A DNA stretch of 43,028 bases, from the NCBI RefSeq assembly GCF_004402785.1, contig NZ_SOFP01000029.1, forward strand, positions 1-43,028, in the 5' to 3' direction. Positions 6,798 through 38,150 of this stretch are shown here, one piece after another (the stretch's first letter is position 1; each line of letters starts with the position of its first letter). This stretch comes from Cryobacterium algoritolerans (GTDB taxonomy: Bacteria > Actinomycetota > Actinomycetes > Actinomycetales > Microbacteriaceae). The notes under the pieces are model-generated. The model ran no database searches and was not told the origin of the DNA. It saw nothing but the letters and a program-made list of their open reading frames with translations. The position numbers and the translations under genes are program-made.

Positions 6798-7466
6798 GTG
6801 AATTCGACACTGACGCGCACCTGGAGCGCCATCCTCTTTGACCTCGACGGAACGATCACCGACTCCGCCCCGGCCATCACCAACTCCCTGGCCCGCACCT
6901 TCGCCCTCCTCGGCCGCCCGGTTCCGCCGGCAGCGGAACTCCTCGCCTACGTCGGCCCGCCCCTGCTCGCGGCCTTCCGTGAATACGCCGGGATGACGCC
7001 CGATGAGGCCCTCGAGGCCCTCGCCGTCTACCGGGCCGACTACCAGGGTGAGCATATGCTCGACACCGCCGTGTACCCCGGCGTGGCCGGCCTGCTCGAG
7101 CGCATCCACGAGGCGAAGATCCCGATGGCCCTGGCCACGAGCAAGCCCGAACACAGCGCCATCACGATCCTCGAACACTTCGACCTCGCTAAATACTTCA
7201 CGGTCATGGTCGGCGCGTCCGACACGGAAACGCGAAGCTCCAAGGCCGACATCGTGGAGGAGGCCCTGACCCGCCTCGGCGCCGTCGGCGCCAACCTTGC
7301 GGCCCCGGTCATGGTCGGCGACCGTAGCTACGACGCTGAGGGTGCCGCCGCCCACGGCGTTCCCACCATCCTCGTCGAGTGGGGCTACGGCTCCCCCGCC
7401 GAGGCCGCCGCCGCGACCGCCACGGTCTACTCGGTCGACCAGCTCGGCAGGCTCCTGCTCGGCTGA
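6798..7466 (+). CDS. HAD-superfamily phosphatase, phosphoglycolate phosphatase-like
   Basis: Cytoplasmic HAD hydrolase of 222 residues. Motif I is FDLDGTITDS with the nucleophile and acid/base aspartates, motif II the LATSK region, and motif III/IV K...VMVGDRSYDAEGA. The helical cap lies between motifs I and II (about residues 20-90), the arrangement of the Gph/PgmB subfamily. Phosphoglycolate is the best guess for a substrate, but these enzymes are broad. The start is GTG 6798, supported by the leaderless -10 spacing. A strong hairpin follows the gene. Confidence 0.85.
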   Translation: MNSTLTRTWSAILFDLDGTITDSAPAITNSLARTFALLGRPVPPAAELLAYVGPPLLAAFREYAGMTPDEALEALAVYRADYQGEHMLDTAVYPGVAGLLERIHEAKIPMALATSKPEHSAITILEHFDLAKYFTVMVGASDTETRSSKADIVEEALTRLGAVGANLAAPVMVGDRSYDAEGAAAHGVPTILVEWGYGSPAEAAAATATVYSVDQLGRLLLG

Positions 7467-7471
7467 TCCAC

Positions 7472-7535
7472 CCGACACACGAAAACGCACGAGGTGCCTT
7501 CCTTCCGGCGGCGCCTCGTGCGTTTCCTGTGTCGG
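7472..7535. terminator. Long hairpin, probably a bidirectional terminator
   Basis: A long interrupted stem: CCGACACA pairs with TGTGTCGG on the outside, and AAACGCACGAGGTGC pairs with GCGCCTCGTGCGTTT on the inside (one G-T pair), with a short loop. It sits between the HAD gene and the end of the hps gene on the other strand. Confidence 0.75.
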
Positions 7536-7571
7536 CGGCTTCATGCCGCCGAGACATGCCGCCCCTGACCC

Positions 7572-7621
7572 AGATGATCTGGCTCAGATGATCTGGCTCA
7601 GATGATCTGGCTCAGATGATC
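7572..7621. repeat. 14-bp tandem repeat, 3.6 copies, overlapping the hps stop codon
   Basis: Three full copies of AGATGATCTGGCTC followed by AGATGATC. The stop codon of hps (minus strand, 7612-7614) lies at the junction of the third copy and the partial one, so the other units are duplications of the gene's last codons into the 3' untranslated side. Confidence 0.95.
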
Positions 7622-8235
7622 GCCGCACGCAGGGCCCGGGCCGCGGCCGCCGGATCCTCCGCACCGTAGATCGCGCCGCCCGCGACGGCAACGGATGCGC
7701 CGGCCCGCTGCACGGAGGCGATGGTGGCAATGCTCACACCGCCCGCCAGCGAGAACGGCACCCGGGCCGTCTCGCCCTGGTTGAGCAGTGTCGCCAGGGA
7801 GAAGCCGGGCTCGGCCTGCTCGTCGAGGCCGGCATGCATCTCAACGAACGCGGCGCCGAGTTCGGTGACCTCCCGGGCGCGGGTCACCTTGTCGGCGACC
7901 CCGATCAGGTCGACGACGACTCCCTTGCCGTGCTTCTTAGCCGCTGCGACCGCCCCGGCGATGGTGCTGTCACCGGCCGCCCCGAGCACGGTCACCAGGT
8001 CGGCGCCGGCCGTGAACGCCAGGTCTGCCTCGAGTTCTCCGGCATCCATGGTCTTGAGGTCGGCGAAGACCGTCTTATCCGGGTGCGCCGCCTTGATGGC
8101 GGTCACGGCGCGCAGGCCTTCCGCCTTGATCAGCGGGGTGCCGAGTTCGATGATGTCCACGTGCGGCGCGACCTGTGCGGCCAGCGCGAGGGCCGCATCC
8201 GTGGTGACCACGTCCATGGCTACTTGAAGCTTCAT
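7612..8235 (-). CDS. hxlA: 3-hexulose-6-phosphate synthase
   Basis: The enzyme condenses formaldehyde with ribulose 5-phosphate to 3-hexulose 6-phosphate, the first step of the ribulose monophosphate route. The 207-residue product is a decarboxylase-fold TIM barrel: MKLQVAMDVVTTDAALALA, DIIELGTPLI, then the metal/substrate motif VFADLKTMDAGELEAD (D-x-K-x3-D type), VVVDLIGV, the E-x-H pair in FVEMHAGLDEQ and the phosphate loop FSLAGGVSIA / VAVAGGAIYGA. The start is ATG 8235 (MKLQVAM) behind AGAGAGAAG. The related KGPDC (UlaD) shares this fold; the adjacent isomerase makes the synthase reading much more likely. Confidence 0.9.
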   Translation of the reverse strand: MKLQVAMDVVTTDAALALAAQVAPHVDIIELGTPLIKAEGLRAVTAIKAAHPDKTVFADLKTMDAGELEADLAFTAGADLVTVLGAAGDSTIAGAVAAAKKHGKGVVVDLIGVADKVTRAREVTELGAAFVEMHAGLDEQAEPGFSLATLLNQGETARVPFSLAGGVSIATIASVQRAGASVAVAGGAIYGAEDPAAAARALRAAII

Positions 8236-8317
8236 GTTGTTCTTCTCTCTGTTTCGGTTGGATTGACTGGATTCGTCGGGGAGACGGGGTGGTCTGGGAG
8301 GGCGAGGCTGGTCAGGG

Positions 8318-8920
8318 CTATTCGAGGTTGGCGTGGCGCGGCCACAGCTCCTCGGCCGATGCGCCGGATGCCTTCCACAAGCCGTGGAAAATGGCGTCGC
8401 CGATGACCACGACACTCTGCTCGAACAGGCCACCGGAGTACTGGGCCGAGACCTGCCCGTCGTGGTCCTGCTTCCGGGCGGCAGGAACCACGACCGTCAC
8501 CTTGGCCAGGCCGCCGAGCGGCGAGCCGAGATCCGTGGTGATCGCCACGATCCCGGCGCCGGCCGCCGCCGCAGCCTCGGCCGCACGCACGATCGCACCG
8601 GTGCTGCCCGAGCCGCTGGCCACCAGCAGCACGTCGCCGGGGCCGATCGCCGGCGCCGTCGTCTCGCCCACCACGTGCACCCGGAGTCCCAGGTGCATGA
8701 GGCGCATCGCGGTCATCTTCAGTGCGAGGCCCGACCGGCCGACCCCGAAGACGAAGACGCTCCGGGCGGCCAGCAGCCGTGCGGCGGCCGAGTCGAGGGT
8801 TGCCTCGGCATCTGCCAGCAGCCGAAGGATGACGGCGGCGTTCTCGGCAGCGATGAGTTCGAGGGCGGGCAGGATCGAGGGGGTGGGTTCGGGGCGCGAG
8901 ACTGTGGCGCGTGAAGGCAT
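8318..8920 (-). CDS. hxlB: 6-phospho-3-hexuloisomerase
   Basis: SIS-domain isomerase of 200 residues that converts 3-hexulose 6-phosphate to fructose 6-phosphate, completing formaldehyde fixation. The sugar-phosphate binding site is visible in VFVFGVGRSGLALKMTAMRL and in LLVASGSGSTGAIV. The C-terminal PHI signature QYSGGLFEQSVVVIGDAIFH is clear. It lies upstream of hxlA on the same strand, with about 80 bases between the genes, so phi-hps is the transcription order. The ATG at 8920 has GATGAGGT almost against it, an unusually close ribosome site. A perfect 20-bp palindrome sits 54 bases upstream. Confidence 0.92.
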   Translation of the reverse strand: MPSRATVSRPEPTPSILPALELIAAENAAVILRLLADAEATLDSAAARLLAARSVFVFGVGRSGLALKMTAMRLMHLGLRVHVVGETTAPAIGPGDVLLVASGSGSTGAIVRAAEAAAAAGAGIVAITTDLGSPLGGLAKVTVVVPAARKQDHDGQVSAQYSGGLFEQSVVVIGDAIFHGLWKASGASAEELWPRHANLE

Positions 8921-8973
8921 ACCTCATCGTGCGCCGTTCCGGGCAGGCGTGCGGCCCACCAAACGGACGGCAG

Positions 8974-8993
8974 ACCTACCCATCCGGGTAGGT
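8974..8993. promoter_or_regulatory. Perfect 20-bp palindromic operator between phi-hps and luxR
   Basis: ACCTACCCATCCGGGTAGGT has eight-base arms and a four-base centre. The core TACCC-N4-GGGTA is the pattern recognised by the CsoR/RcnR/FrmR repressor family and recurs at 11118 and, with one change, at 36304. Overlapping it on the plus strand is TAGGTT (8989-8994), which could be a -10 element. A LuxR-type dimer could also bind a site of this size. Confidence 0.7.
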
Positions 8994-9028
8994 TTACCCG
9001 GATTCAGCGAGTCAGGCACGGGAATGGA

Positions 9029-9034
9029 TAGGCT
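9029..9034 (+). promoter_or_regulatory. -10 hexamer TAGGCT for leaderless luxR-type gene
   Basis: TAGGCT ends six bases before GTG 9041, and no ribosome site precedes the GTG. The same hexamer at the same distance precedes nucS. Confidence 0.6.
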
Positions 9035-9040
9035 GGATTC

Positions 9041-10363
9041 GTGAATCCACTTCTCCAACCCCATTCGATCGAATTGCTCGAGCGCGTCGACCTGGTGCTC
9101 TCGAGCCCGCTCCTCGGCATGGCGGCGAGCCTCTCCGAACTGGTGCGCCCCCTCCTCACCCACAGCGCGCTGGTGATCTTCACCGAAGACTGCACCGGGC
9201 GGCCACAGAAGAAGGCCGGAGACGACGGGATCACGGACCGGGTGTCGATCGCGGAACTGGATACGCTGCGTGGCTCGATGCCGGAGGGCTCCGCGCCCCT
9301 CTGGCTGCCCGGCGCGACCATCGGCTCCGAGGTGCGCCCGGTGGCGGTCTGGCTCGCCGCCACGGGCGCGCTGCTCGTGCTCACCGACCCCGAGCCGGGT
9401 CCGGAATCCGAGTGGGCCGGGGCGCCCGCCCGACCTGGCACCGTGTCGGAGGACGGGCCGGAGAGTGGGCCGGCCCGGTCCATCGCCGTGATCGGGCAAT
9501 TGTGGGAGCTCGTCGCCGCCGGCATCCGTCGCCAGGTGGCCGCGGCGCCGCCCGCCTATCTCTTCGACTCGCGGGCCGCATCCGCTGAGCGGGCCAGGGT
9601 GATCGCCGATCTCACCGACGCACACGCGACCACGCTGGAGTCGCTCCTCGCCGTGCTCCGCGCCCGCGACGCCAGCGCGGAAGCGGCGCGCCAGAACGCG
9701 ATCGACGTGACGGCAAAGGCCATGGTACGACTACGGGCGGTCTCCGACCGCGACCGGTCCCTGTCGGAGGAACCGGTCGCTCAGGCCTTCGAACGGTTGC
9801 GTGACGATCTGCGGCCGCTGGTGCGTTTCGGCGACCTGGACGTGCAGTTCATTGAGCCCCCGCTCAACGGCCGCGCGCTCCCCGGCGAGGTTGCCCACGC
9901 CGGGCGAGCCATCGTGCGCGGTGCCGTGCTCGCCCTGATCGATCAGGAGGGGGTCGGCCGGGTGCGGGTGCAGTGGGACTGCGACGGCAGCAACCTGCTC
10001 ATCCGCGTCCGGGACGACGGGCCGGGCGATCTCACCACCGACGTTCCCAGTGTGAGCCGGCTGGCCGGCCGGGTTGCCGCGCTCAGCGGCAGCCTCGAAG
10101 TGGAGGCCACCGCCGGGTGGGGCTCCGAGATGGTGGTGACCCTCCCGCTGGACGCGCCGGTCGCCGCGCTGGCCCCGGCCGCCGAATGGGGCCTCAGCCC
10201 CCGCGAACAGGGTGTGCTGGAACTGGTCGCCTCCGGTGCGCGCAACCGCGCTATCGCCGAGGCGCTGTTGATCAGCGAGAACACCGTCAAGTTCCACGTG
10301 GCAAACCTGCTTCGCAAGGTGGGTGCCTCCACGCGGGCGGAGCTCGCCTCGCTCGCTCGCTGA
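9041..10363 (+). CDS. LuxR-type regulator fused to a degenerate histidine-kinase core
   Basis: 440 residues in three parts. Residues 1-170 are a GAF-like or unknown sensory region (not assigned). Residues 180-370 resemble a HisKA_3/HATPase_c pair: ERARVIADLTDAH (183-195) aligns with the usual E-R-x-R-I-A-x-E-L-H-D box, but threonine 192 replaces the phosphoacceptor histidine. The ATPase G1 box is DDGPG (325-329) and a G2-like GWGSEMVVTLPL follows, while the N-box asparagine is not visible. Residues 384-438 are a LuxR_C helix-turn-helix (LSPREQGVLELVASG, then NRAIAEALLISENTVKFHV). There is no receiver domain. It is divergent from phi-hps and may regulate it. Confidence 0.85.
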   Translation: MNPLLQPHSIELLERVDLVLSSPLLGMAASLSELVRPLLTHSALVIFTEDCTGRPQKKAGDDGITDRVSIAELDTLRGSMPEGSAPLWLPGATIGSEVRPVAVWLAATGALLVLTDPEPGPESEWAGAPARPGTVSEDGPESGPARSIAVIGQLWELVAAGIRRQVAAAPPAYLFDSRAASAERARVIADLTDAHATTLESLLAVLRARDASAEAARQNAIDVTAKAMVRLRAVSDRDRSLSEEPVAQAFERLRDDLRPLVRFGDLDVQFIEPPLNGRALPGEVAHAGRAIVRGAVLALIDQEGVGRVRVQWDCDGSNLLIRVRDDGPGDLTTDVPSVSRLAGRVAALSGSLEVEATAGWGSEMVVTLPLDAPVAALAPAAEWGLSPREQGVLELVASGARNRAIAEALLISENTVKFHVANLLRKVGASTRAELASLAR

Positions 10364-10382: not shown

Positions 10383-10407
10383 CCGAGCCGAGCCGAGCCG
10401 AGCCGAG
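10383..10407. repeat. CCGAG pentamer repeat, five copies
   Basis: Five perfect CCGAG units lie 20 bases after the luxR-type gene. It is a microsatellite-like stretch with no obvious function. Confidence 0.9.
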
Positions 10408-11117: not shown

Positions 11118-11131
11118 TACCCCATAGGGTA
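11118..11131. promoter_or_regulatory. CsoR/CstR-like operator overlapping a -10 element
   Basis: TACCC-CATA-GGGTA is a perfect inverted repeat. TATATT (11130-11135) overlaps its right arm and can serve as the -10 box. The ribosome site and start of the DUF2892 gene lie about 30 bases further on, as expected for a repressible promoter. Confidence 0.65.
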
Positions 11132-11162
11132 TATTGGGAGGCACAGAGCAAGGGAGCACATG

Positions 11163-11387
11163 ATGTCCACTCTTCAGTTCCTCGGGTCGACCGCCGGTCG
11201 CTGGGCACGCATCATCGCCGGCCTCACCCTCGTCGCCCTCACCGTGGTCCTCGGCGGCTGGTGGTGGATCCTGGCCGTGCTCGGCGCCGTGTTCATCGCC
11301 GCGGGTTCGTTCGATTTCTGCCTGCTCGCGCCGCTCTTCGGCAAGCCGTTGCAGGGACCCGACTTCCGGAAAACCCACACATCCTGA
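11163..11387 (+). CDS. DUF2892 family inner-membrane protein (YgaP-TM-like)
   Basis: Small membrane protein of 74 residues with two hydrophobic segments (about 14-30 and 34-50) separated by a short turn, ending in the family signature GSFDFCLLAPLFGKPLQGPD. DUF2892 domains are found alone or attached to rhodanese domains in sulfur metabolism; the cysteine in FDFCLLAP is conserved in the family. Two ATGs are adjacent; the second (11163) is better spaced from GGGAG at 11152. The CsoR/CstR-like operator just upstream fits regulation by persulfide or copper. The MFS gene that follows starts within about 30 bases. Confidence 0.85.
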   Translation: MSTLQFLGSTAGRWARIIAGLTLVALTVVLGGWWWILAVLGAVFIAAGSFDFCLLAPLFGKPLQGPDFRKTHTS

Positions 11388-36303: not shown

Positions 36304-36319
36304 TACCCCCGGGGGCATA
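36304..36319. promoter_or_regulatory. CsoR-like operator before the SHOCT/multicopper-oxidase genes
   Basis: TACCCCCGGGGGCATA, i.e. TACCC-CCGG-GGGCA with an outer TA, is the GC-rich dyad of CsoR-type copper repressors. CATACT (36316-36321) overlaps it and may be the -10 box. It lies 45 bases before the SHOCT gene. Confidence 0.65.
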
Positions 36320-36363: not shown

Positions 36364-36645
36364 ATGATGTACGGCTACGGAGGAGGAATGGGATGGGCCT
36401 GGGTGTTCGGCCTGCTGGCGCTGGTCGGCATCGCCTTGCTCGTCGTCCTCATGGTTCGGCTGTTCTCCGGCGGAGTGGATCGGAACACGCCGGACCCGCG
36501 GAACGCACCGGACCCACGGACACTACCGGCCGGCTCACCCGGCAGGAGCCGCGCCCGCCAGATCCTCGACGAACGCTTTGCGCAAGGCGACTTGACCGCC
36601 GAGCAGTATCGTGAGCAGGTTCAGGTACTCGGCGAGGGCGCCTAG
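36364..36645 (+). CDS. SHOCT-domain small membrane protein
   Basis: A 93-residue protein with one transmembrane helix (about 12-34, WAWVFGLLALVGIALLVVLM) and a C-terminal SHOCT motif (ARQILDERFAQGDLTAEQYR). Such proteins are common beside copper oxidases, with an unknown role. The ATG is behind GGAG seven bases away. The TAG stop shares a base with the GTG of the oxidase gene, so the two are translated together. Confidence 0.88.
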   Translation: MMYGYGGGMGWAWVFGLLALVGIALLVVLMVRLFSGGVDRNTPDPRNAPDPRTLPAGSPGRSRARQILDERFAQGDLTAEQYREQVQVLGEGA

Positions 36646-38150
36646 TGAAGCCGATCAGCCGCCGGACCGCCGTCACCCTCGGCGGTCTGGGACTGGCCGG
36701 CACCGTCGTCGGGGGTGCCGGGCTGCTCTGGACCGCGCAGCCCGGCCGTACCCCGTTCGGCGACACTGTCGCCCGGTCGGCGTTCGGGGCGAAATCCGGC
36801 GAGCCGCTGCGCCAGCCGACCGAGCTGAAGAGCCGCGACGGTGTGCTGGAGGTGACGCTGGATGCCGCGCCGGGCCAGGTGCGGATCGGCGGCCGGAACG
36901 CCGCCACCCTCGGCTACAACGGCGGCCTCCCGGGTCCGACGCTGCGTGTGCGGGCCGGGGACCGGGTTGCGGTGACCTTGCATAACGGTCTCGCCGACCC
37001 CACCAACCTGCACACCCACGGCCTGCACGTCTCCCCGGAGGGCAAGAGCGACAACCCGTTCGTCATGATCGAGCCAGGCGACTCGTTCGACTACGAGTTC
37101 CGGCTGCCGGCCGACCACCCGCCCGGCCTCTACTGGTACCACCCGCATCACCACGGGGTCGTGGCCGCCCAGGTCTTCGGCGGGCTCTACGGCGCCATCG
37201 TCGTCGAAGACCCGCTGCCGATCCCGGTCACCCGCGAACGCGTGCTGGTGGTCTCCGACCTCACCCTCAACGCCGAAGGCAGCCTGGCCCGGGCCACGGT
37301 GGCCGAACGGATGCACGGACGTGAGGGTGAGCTGGTGCTGGTGAACGGACAGCTGAACCCGGCGGTGGACATCCGTTCGGGCGAACGCGAACGCTGGCGG
37401 ATTGTCAACGCCTGCGTCTCCCGCTACCTGCGACTCCGACTCGACGGGCAGGAGCTGCGGCTCCTCGGTCTGGACTCCGGCCGGTTCGGCAAGCCGAAGA
37501 AGGTGGACGAGGTGCTGCTGGCACCCGGCAATCGTGCCGATCTGCTCGTCACCGCGACGGAGGGCGTCGCCGCCCTGCGCGCCGTTCCCTACGATCGCGG
37601 GGACGACGGCATGATGGGCGGCAGCGGCGGTTCCTCCCCCTCCGAGGTCACGCTCGCCACGGTGACTGTCGCAGATGCCGGTTCCGGCGGCAACGCCAAC
37701 GCGCTGGCGCCAATCCCCCGTCAAGCCACACCGCCCGACCTTCGCGGCGCCACGGTCACGGCGCGCCGCGAATTCGTCTTCGAAATGGGCATGGGCGGCA
37801 TGATGGGCGGCGGCGGCATGGGCTTCACCATCAACGGCCGCGAATTCGACGGCGCCAGGGTGGACACGACCGTGCAGGGCGGCAGCGTCGAGGAATGGAC
37901 CCTGACCAACGCCAGCCGGATGGACCACCCGCTGCACCTGCACGTCTGGCCGATGCAGGTCATCGAACGTGCCGGCCGCGCCGTGGACTCCGTGCTCTGG
38001 CAGGACGTCATCAACGTGCCGGCCCGCTCGGTCGTTCTGGTGCGGATCGCCTTCACCGGATTCACCGGCAAGACCGTGTACCACTGCCACATTCTCGACC
38101 ACGAAGACAACGGCATGATGGGCGTCATCGATGTCCGTCCGGCCGGCTAA
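36645..38150 (+). CDS. Multicopper oxidase, Tat-exported
   Basis: A 501-residue laccase-like oxidase. The N-terminal ISRRTAVTLGGLGLAGTVVG has twin arginines and a hydrophobic core, so Tat export is likely. Copper ligands: HTHGLHV and WYHPHHHGVVAAQ (first cupredoxin domain), HPLHLHVWPMQV and YHCHILDHEDNGMM (third domain), the latter with His-Cys-His and the axial Met. The loop between (about residues 320-400) is Gly- and Met-rich. It oxidises Cu(I) or organic substrates outside the membrane. Its operon is controlled by the CsoR-like site at 36304. Confidence 0.93.
   Translation: MKPISRRTAVTLGGLGLAGTVVGGAGLLWTAQPGRTPFGDTVARSAFGAKSGEPLRQPTELKSRDGVLEVTLDAAPGQVRIGGRNAATLGYNGGLPGPTLRVRAGDRVAVTLHNGLADPTNLHTHGLHVSPEGKSDNPFVMIEPGDSFDYEFRLPADHPPGLYWYHPHHHGVVAAQVFGGLYGAIVVEDPLPIPVTRERVLVVSDLTLNAEGSLARATVAERMHGREGELVLVNGQLNPAVDIRSGERERWRIVNACVSRYLRLRLDGQELRLLGLDSGRFGKPKKVDEVLLAPGNRADLLVTATEGVAALRAVPYDRGDDGMMGGSGGSSPSEVTLATVTVADAGSGGNANALAPIPRQATPPDLRGATVTARREFVFEMGMGGMMGGGGMGFTINGREFDGARVDTTVQGGSVEEWTLTNASRMDHPLHLHVWPMQVIERAGRAVDSVLWQDVINVPARSVVLVRIAFTGFTGKTVYHCHILDHEDNGMMGVIDVRPAG

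Follow-up and report, generated by a model that had tools for sequence, protein, structure and literature searches.

Between the formaldehyde-fixing genes and a LuxR-type regulator gene of Cryobacterium algoritolerans stands a palindrome whose core recurs at two other places in the same stretch of DNA, and this raises the question of which protein reads it and whether a single circuit joins the three sites. The stretch, referred to here as the window, is 43,028 nucleotides long (contig NZ_SOFP01000029.1, labeled C65, of a 3.7-Mb genome). The palindrome is flanked by divergent genes, with phi and hps on the minus strand and the LuxR-type gene (lux) on the plus strand:

7612 to 8235, minus strand: hps, 3-hexulose-6-phosphate synthase (TIGR03128, 253 bits)
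8318 to 8920, minus strand: phi, 6-phospho-3-hexuloisomerase (TIGR03127, 224.5 bits)
8975 to 8992, no strand: main operator A, CCTACCCATCCGGGTAGG, predicted LuxR-type binding site (de novo motif, matrix score)
9041 to 10363, plus strand: lux, LuxR-type regulator (LuxR/GerE helix-turn-helix [HTH] PF00196, 63.7 bits; cut-off, 23.5)

The closest named match of the LuxR-type protein is from Cryobacterium (94% identity). Operator A is the site that a preliminary description had placed at 8974-8993 as a 20-bp perfect palindrome and assigned to a CsoR/FrmR-type repressor, with the LuxR-type neighbor as an alternative binder. Its arms, ACCTACCC and GGGTAGGT, are indeed perfect over 8 bp each; the center, ATCC, breaks the symmetry, leaving 16 of 20 positions palindromic. 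From comparisons of sequence, we consider it likely that the alternative is the right one and that the LuxR-type protein binds operators of the 8975-8992 type and governs the genes that carry them. The motif would then mark a formaldehyde-response circuit shared by related bacteria.

The comparison was based on the best 80 of 348 lux homologues in public genomes. In this set, 52 are divergent from phi and 20 are divergent from a transketolase gene (tkt), while phi-hps lies downstream in three, tkt lies downstream in one, and neither is present in four, one of which is on a 4-kb contig. Applied to 40 non-redundant phi-lux intergenic regions, the window included, de novo motif finding gave CCTACCC-GNNC-GGGTAGG as its top palindrome (log-likelihood, 358, versus 28.5 for shuffled regions). 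The hps-phi site belongs to this class, scores 23.7 of a maximum of 27.2 with the phi-lux matrix, and is the sole place in the genome within one mismatch of the consensus. All 13 non-redundant tkt-lux regions outside the training set have a best score at p <= 0.016. At a matrix score of 9 or more, the motif was found out of sample before phi in 26 of 27 cases, before tkt in 19 of 20, and before testable formaldehyde dehydrogenase (fdh) genes in two of three, whereas the same matrix found it before none of 50 internal operon genes (hps, 0/20; tal, 0/15; rpe, 0/15). Control windows inside the lux coding sequence (n = 212) gave a 95th percentile of 2.3 and a maximum of 5.9. A palindrome could also form a hairpin, and the operator role assigned here is a prediction, but the possibility that the motif is an RNA or DNA structure, or the site of an unrelated general factor, is very slight: the motif stands before lux-linked and unlinked operons and is absent before internal genes, and the host genome shows no excess of near-matches (53 at three or fewer mismatches versus 74 in the control).

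The operator also travels with the genes. In tandem lux/phi loci, it is found before phi (scores of 24.5 in L072, 20.7 in L059, and 15.3 in L057). In genome G060, where lux and hps are about 0.82 Mb apart, the operator is present at both lux (near-perfect, 24.5) and phi (perfect consensus, 26.8). In G039 (Cryobacterium zongtaii, L051), hps was not found in the genome search, and lux is retained with its site (21.1), which fits autoregulation. In G088, which lacks hps, a 43%-identical lux homologue is divergent from a gene for glutathione-independent formaldehyde dehydrogenase (fdhA), with a perfect consensus between them, and this arrangement recurs with a weaker site (19.0) in G172. Formaldehyde is the common factor of hps-phi, fdhA, and the tkt-tal-rpe operon, which regenerates ribulose-5-phosphate. 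Formaldehyde dehydrogenase homologues were also seen within a few kilobases of lux and hps-phi at L110 (8798-10006) and L173 (3427-4605), with 85% and 52% identity, respectively, to the L178 enzyme. In these respects, the idea of a regulatory palindrome with a connection to formaldehyde proved right.

The proposed link to the two other sites of the window was not supported. According to the preliminary description, a single repressor, or several related ones, may tie the formaldehyde genes to the following sites and genes:

11118 to 11131, no strand: putative CsoR/CstR-type site TACCCCATAGGGTA before the YgaP-like_TM (DUF2892) gene (matrix score, -0.7; one outer mismatch to ATACCn6GGTAT)
11160 to 11387, plus strand: YgaP-like_TM protein, 75 amino acids (PF11127, which we take to be the former DUF2892)
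36304 to 36317, no strand: putative CsoR-type site TACCCCCGGGGGCA before genes for a SHOCT-like protein and a multicopper oxidase (matrix score, -20.3; class TACCCCNNGGGGTA)
36645 to 38150, plus strand: multicopper oxidase (PF07732, PF07731, and PF00394)

The gene names given earlier, from hps to the oxidase, are all upheld by profile matches, and the core TACCC-N4-GGGTA is present where it had been placed, exactly at 8977-8990 and 11118-11131 and with one mismatch at 36304-36317. These three matches at one mismatch or fewer compare with a mean of 0.36 in shuffled windows, and one of 100 shuffles reached three. Genome-wide, the exact core occurs at nine places, at least one of which (C57:40841) is inside a predicted reading frame, versus one place for a reversed-pattern control; its occurrence is beyond chance. 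Behind this one core, however, are two sequence classes. The hps-phi site has the pattern CTACCC-(G/A)..-GGGTAG, and the DUF2892 and oxidase sites have TACCCC... Among the distinct exact cores in the retrieved loci (17 upstream of lux and 15 elsewhere), all 34 half-sites upstream of lux have C as the base 5' of TACCC, whereas the 30 half-sites elsewhere have A in 19, T in 5, G in 4, and C in 2. The base 3' of TACCC is G in 27, A in 6, T in 1, and C in 0 of the 34, compared with C in 22 of the 30. Both C-preceded half-sites found elsewhere belong to the L072 site before phi, which is truly of the lux class, since lux and phi are in tandem there. The class TACCCCNNGGGGTA, with at most one mismatch, occurs at 13 places in the genome, the DUF2892 and oxidase sites included, versus 2 in the control. 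In relatives, the sites at a matching distance downstream of lux (judged by distance) read TACCCCnnGGGGTA in five of six distinct cases, and the sixth is the window's own core on the opposite strand. Putative -10-like boxes, TATATT and CATACT, are readable at the DUF2892 and oxidase sites.

Experiments have defined ATACCn6GGTAT as an actinobacterial CsoR site, namely that of ScCsoR of Streptomyces coelicolor, whose targets are genes for persulfide dioxygenase and rhodanese (PMC7533328). At the DUF2892 site, a single outer base departs from this sequence. Exact copies number seven in the genome and zero in the control, and this exact genome-wide search found none at hps-phi, where both outer bases differ. 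The usual CsoR-family operator has an outer A/T at TACC..GGTA and a central C/G run of at least four bases. The hps-phi site departs from this pattern, with C/G outside and CCC-ATCC-GGG inside; the DUF2892 and oxidase sites qualify as TACCCC..GGGGTA-like palindromes of an enriched class. Two copies of ATACCn6GGTAT are found some 200 bp upstream of the domain conserved in a CstR-like, CsoR-family gene at C83:25524, which suggests autoregulation; the two sites (G000:C83:25313-25348) are 20 bp apart, and the longest reading frame would cross them. Two further copies precede a metallo-beta-lactamase/rhodanese gene (L009), and one precedes a CoA-disulfide reductase/rhodanese gene near a second CsoR-family gene (L006 and L002). 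On the basis of motif and gene function, the DUF2892 site most likely serves a CstR (persulfide) circuit and the oxidase site a CsoR (copper) circuit, both unrelated to hps-phi.

The genome does contain CsoR-family genes, three in number, as the repressor proposal needs. By alignment, one of the proteins has a Cys-His-Cys fingerprint and two have Cys-Ala-Cys. Both proteins near ATACCn6GGTAT loci carry Cys-Ala-Cys; the gene for the Cys-His-Cys protein is beside a CopZ-like gene, and its product is closest to RicR, a copper repressor, at 139.9 bits (less than the cut-off, 175). The FrmR fingerprint (N-terminal Pro, Cys35, His60, and no Cys at 64) is absent from all three, which score 29 to 38 bits with the FrmR model (cut-off, 133); no formaldehyde sensor of the FrmR type first suggested was found. 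A CsoR/RcnR-family repressor, whether FrmR-like, CstR, or CsoR, that binds all three sites and couples formaldehyde, sulfur, and copper would account for the common core. In addition, the GC tracts of CsoR-family "type II" operators may be interrupted (PMC5146963), and the palindrome TACNNTACNNNNGTANNGTA, bound by one member of the family, has no G-tract (PMC10318464), so that a CsoR-type binder is still compatible with the sequence. Such a repressor is nevertheless very improbable at hps-phi, given the different flanking bases, the lux matrix scores at the other two sites, the missing ATACCn6GGTAT signature of CstR-like loci, and the missing FrmR fingerprint. The distribution of the genes also argues for the LuxR-type protein as the binder: among 100 genomes of relatives, lux is present in all 53 that have hps, whereas CsoR-family genes are present in 97. 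The nearly invariant reading helix of the HTH and the NarL-like half-site TACCCAT point in the same direction.

The LuxR-type protein is predicted to consist of an N-terminal GAF/PAS-like part, a degenerate histidine-kinase-like core, and a C-terminal LuxR HTH. The region before the HTH is predicted to fold as the kinase-like core, with the DHp and ATP-binding (CA) fold of the HisKA_3/DesK type. Pfam finds GerE alone in the protein, with neither a receiver domain nor a MarR/HxlR fold. In an alignment of 57 homologues, position 192, presumably the phospho-acceptor position according to its motif, is His in none (T in 46, V in 6, G in 3, and S in 2), and position 195 is a near-invariant His (54/57). 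Position 298, the probable N-box position as placed without a residue-level structural alignment, is Ala in 53 of 57, and the G1 box DxGxG is invariant. This architecture suggests that the protein descends from a two-component pair of the NarL family and has become a one-component regulator. With a kinase-like core that lacks the phospho-acceptor His directly on the HTH, the signal would pass within one polypeptide and not by phosphotransfer.

Two cysteines are conserved, Cys314 in 57 of 57 homologues and Cys51 in 53 of the 54 sequences that have a residue at its position. The invariant Cys314 is a candidate formaldehyde sensor, and formaldehyde is the signal that we regard as likely, with less assurance than for the binding itself. 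The LuxR-type protein may instead bind the operator and sense something else, such as a sugar phosphate of the ribulose monophosphate (RuMP) or pentose phosphate pathway (hexulose-6-phosphate or ribulose-5-phosphate), through its GAF-like or nucleotide-pocket region. We rate this as possible but rather unlikely, since the fdhA targets in two genomes share formaldehyde and not sugar phosphate, the N-terminal domain is absent from short homologues of about 270 to 285 amino acids, and the P0004 homologue keeps the Cys314 motif without the Cys51 motif. Because of the short homologues, the N-terminal domain cannot be the sole sensor. These short forms are found at L031-L042 and related Cryobacterium loci and keep the hps-phi linkage; in G041 and G035, stop codons are present in part of the region that would encode the N-terminal domain.

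Around operator A, further elements were placed:

8954 to 8971, no strand: degenerate operator-like copy B, GCCCACCAAACGGACGGC, 21 bp from A on the phi side (placed from orthologues)
8930 to 8947, no strand: degenerate operator-like copy C, TGCGCCGTTCCGGGCAGG, 45 bp from A on the phi side (orthologue scores)
9029 to 9034, plus strand: -10-like box TAGGCT of the putative lux promoter, with a predicted start at about 9041 (conserved in orthologues)

At the position of copy B, the mean score peaks at -21/-22 (z about 4), with scores above 0 in 11 of 33 sites. At copy C, 12 of 33 sites score above 0 at -48 to -45, but the mean-score peak at -45 reaches only z 1.9; this copy is strong in Salinibacterium (12.6 to 15.1). 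Such second sites, about two helical turns apart, would suit cooperative dimers on one face of the DNA. Eight of 33 sites also gave matrix scores above 0 at +61 to +64 from the operator, at the lux start in short-spacing loci, where they probably reflect coding sequence.

In orthologues having a TA(G/T)GNT box, it lies mainly 14 to 16, 26 to 29, or 36 to 37 bp from the operator edge; in the window, the distance is 36 bp on the lux side. A simple consensus scan recognized no -35 element in 7400-9100 and no promoter pair at all. Since the window operator lies upstream of a -10-like box without a recognizable -35, activation is preferred over repression and is the probable effect. In a repressor model, the LuxR-type protein would hold hps-phi off until relieved by formaldehyde. 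The L178 operator, which ends 2 bp before the TAGGCT box, would suit repression of lux, and the edge at 14 to 16 bp in many loci would cover the lux -35 region. The 36-bp distance in the window speaks weakly against this model, as does the finding that the known hps-phi regulator HxlR activates (PMC8879981), and we consider repression fairly unlikely. Under activation, formaldehyde or an adduct would reach the LuxR-type protein, with Cys314 as the candidate sensor, and the signal would pass within the single chain from the kinase-like core to the LuxR DNA-binding domain. The protein on 8975-8992 would then switch on hps-phi and adjust its own expression, and through the same motif it may reach tkt-tal-rpe operons, phi genes elsewhere, and fdhA in two genomes.

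Besides the type II and G-tract-free operators, the short homologues, the L178 spacing, and the simplicity of the scan by which no -35 element was recognized, several observations weigh against the LuxR-type protein as the activator of a motif-bearing regulon. Scores fall below 17 at nine of the 53 phi-lux loci, phi lacks a site in L166, the L110 fdhA, about 2.6 kb from lux, has none, and the 260 bp before lux contain no site in homologues L065, L100, and L119. In the window's own sequence, copies B and C are weak; some operator-to-box spacings fall out of helical phase, and tkt-type loci have a different palindrome as their middle copy. Matches among relatives are also not independent; relatedness inflates all of the counts, and loci with rearranged or unlinked genes carry more weight. 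The second palindrome of the tkt-lux regions (e.g., L092, upstream of 4935) is strongly conserved, mostly as ACACTGTTTTCTGACGGT, at the middle position of the array. The L065 locus (Rhodococcus jostii) has neither RuMP genes nor the operator, and its lux homologue has a cytochrome P450 and a ferredoxin-type reductase as neighbors, possibly a demethylase that releases formaldehyde.

Several known systems resemble parts of this one. A LuxR-type metabolic regulator without a receiver is known in RamA of Corynebacterium, likewise an actinobacterial one-component protein, but the RamA model matches the LuxR-type protein in the HTH alone (22 bits; cut-off, 500). The NarX-NarL, DesK-DesR, and VraS-VraR pairs share with it the kinase ATP-binding fold, the NarL-type HTH, and the NarL-like half-site, whereas the LuxR-type protein is one chain, with no receiver found and no phospho-acceptor His. 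The NarL 7-2-7 arrangement has a spacing of 16 bp, compared with 14 bp here from the TAC to the GTA ends. According to a 2022 review, hps-phi is regulated by HxlR and the glutathione pathway by FrmR (PMC8879981). HxlR of Bacillus likewise regulates hps-phi (hxlAB) and provides a parallel for Cys-based formaldehyde sensing, for which the LuxR-type protein has a candidate too (PMC8879981); HxlR is a MarR/DUF24 regulator, in contrast to a LuxR/NarL HTH on a kinase-like core. FrmR, which senses formaldehyde, and CsoR/CstR also have palindromic operators with a GC-rich core (PMC5146963 and PMC5016687), but the flanking and center bases of the hps-phi operator are different. The ScCsoR site recurs at the CstR-like loci of this genome and fits the DUF2892-type site, not hps-phi (PMC7533328). 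A genome study of methylamine-using Arthrobacter and Mycobacterium describes RuMP gene clusters, and its strains MA-N2 and 141 are our L079/L100 and L086; the legend of its Figure 2 marks regulatory genes, and "LuxR" is absent from its main text (PMC5023230). The literature search found no description of this LuxR-type regulator.

Three repeats near these genes were also observed. A tandem 14-bp repeat, CTGGCTCAGATGAT, at 7565-7620 reaches into the last hps codons. An inverted repeat at 7483-7525, with 16-nucleotide arms that are 94% complementary, lies between hps and a gene that ends near 7466; no T run follows it in the terminator scan. A short CCGAG repeat run is present at 10383-10406, 3' of the lux stop codon.

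Taken as a whole, and only tentatively, since the full combination is less probable than its main parts, the LuxR-type protein may be a collapsed actinobacterial two-component system in which a phosphorelay-dead DesK/NarX-type core is fused to a NarL-type domain, with formaldehyde sensed probably at Cys314, an operator that is often a 22-bp-phased array, and a regulon of hps-phi, tkt-tal-rpe, fdhA, and its own gene. For the formaldehyde-fixing RuMP pathway of Actinobacteria, the analysis offers a precise operator and a candidate for its regulator. For many genera, methylamine-using Arthrobacter and Mycobacterium strains among them, the operator yields direct predictions, and it might be used as a part of formaldehyde biosensors. 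The architecture of the protein also suggests a route by which a two-component pair may collapse into a one-component regulator.
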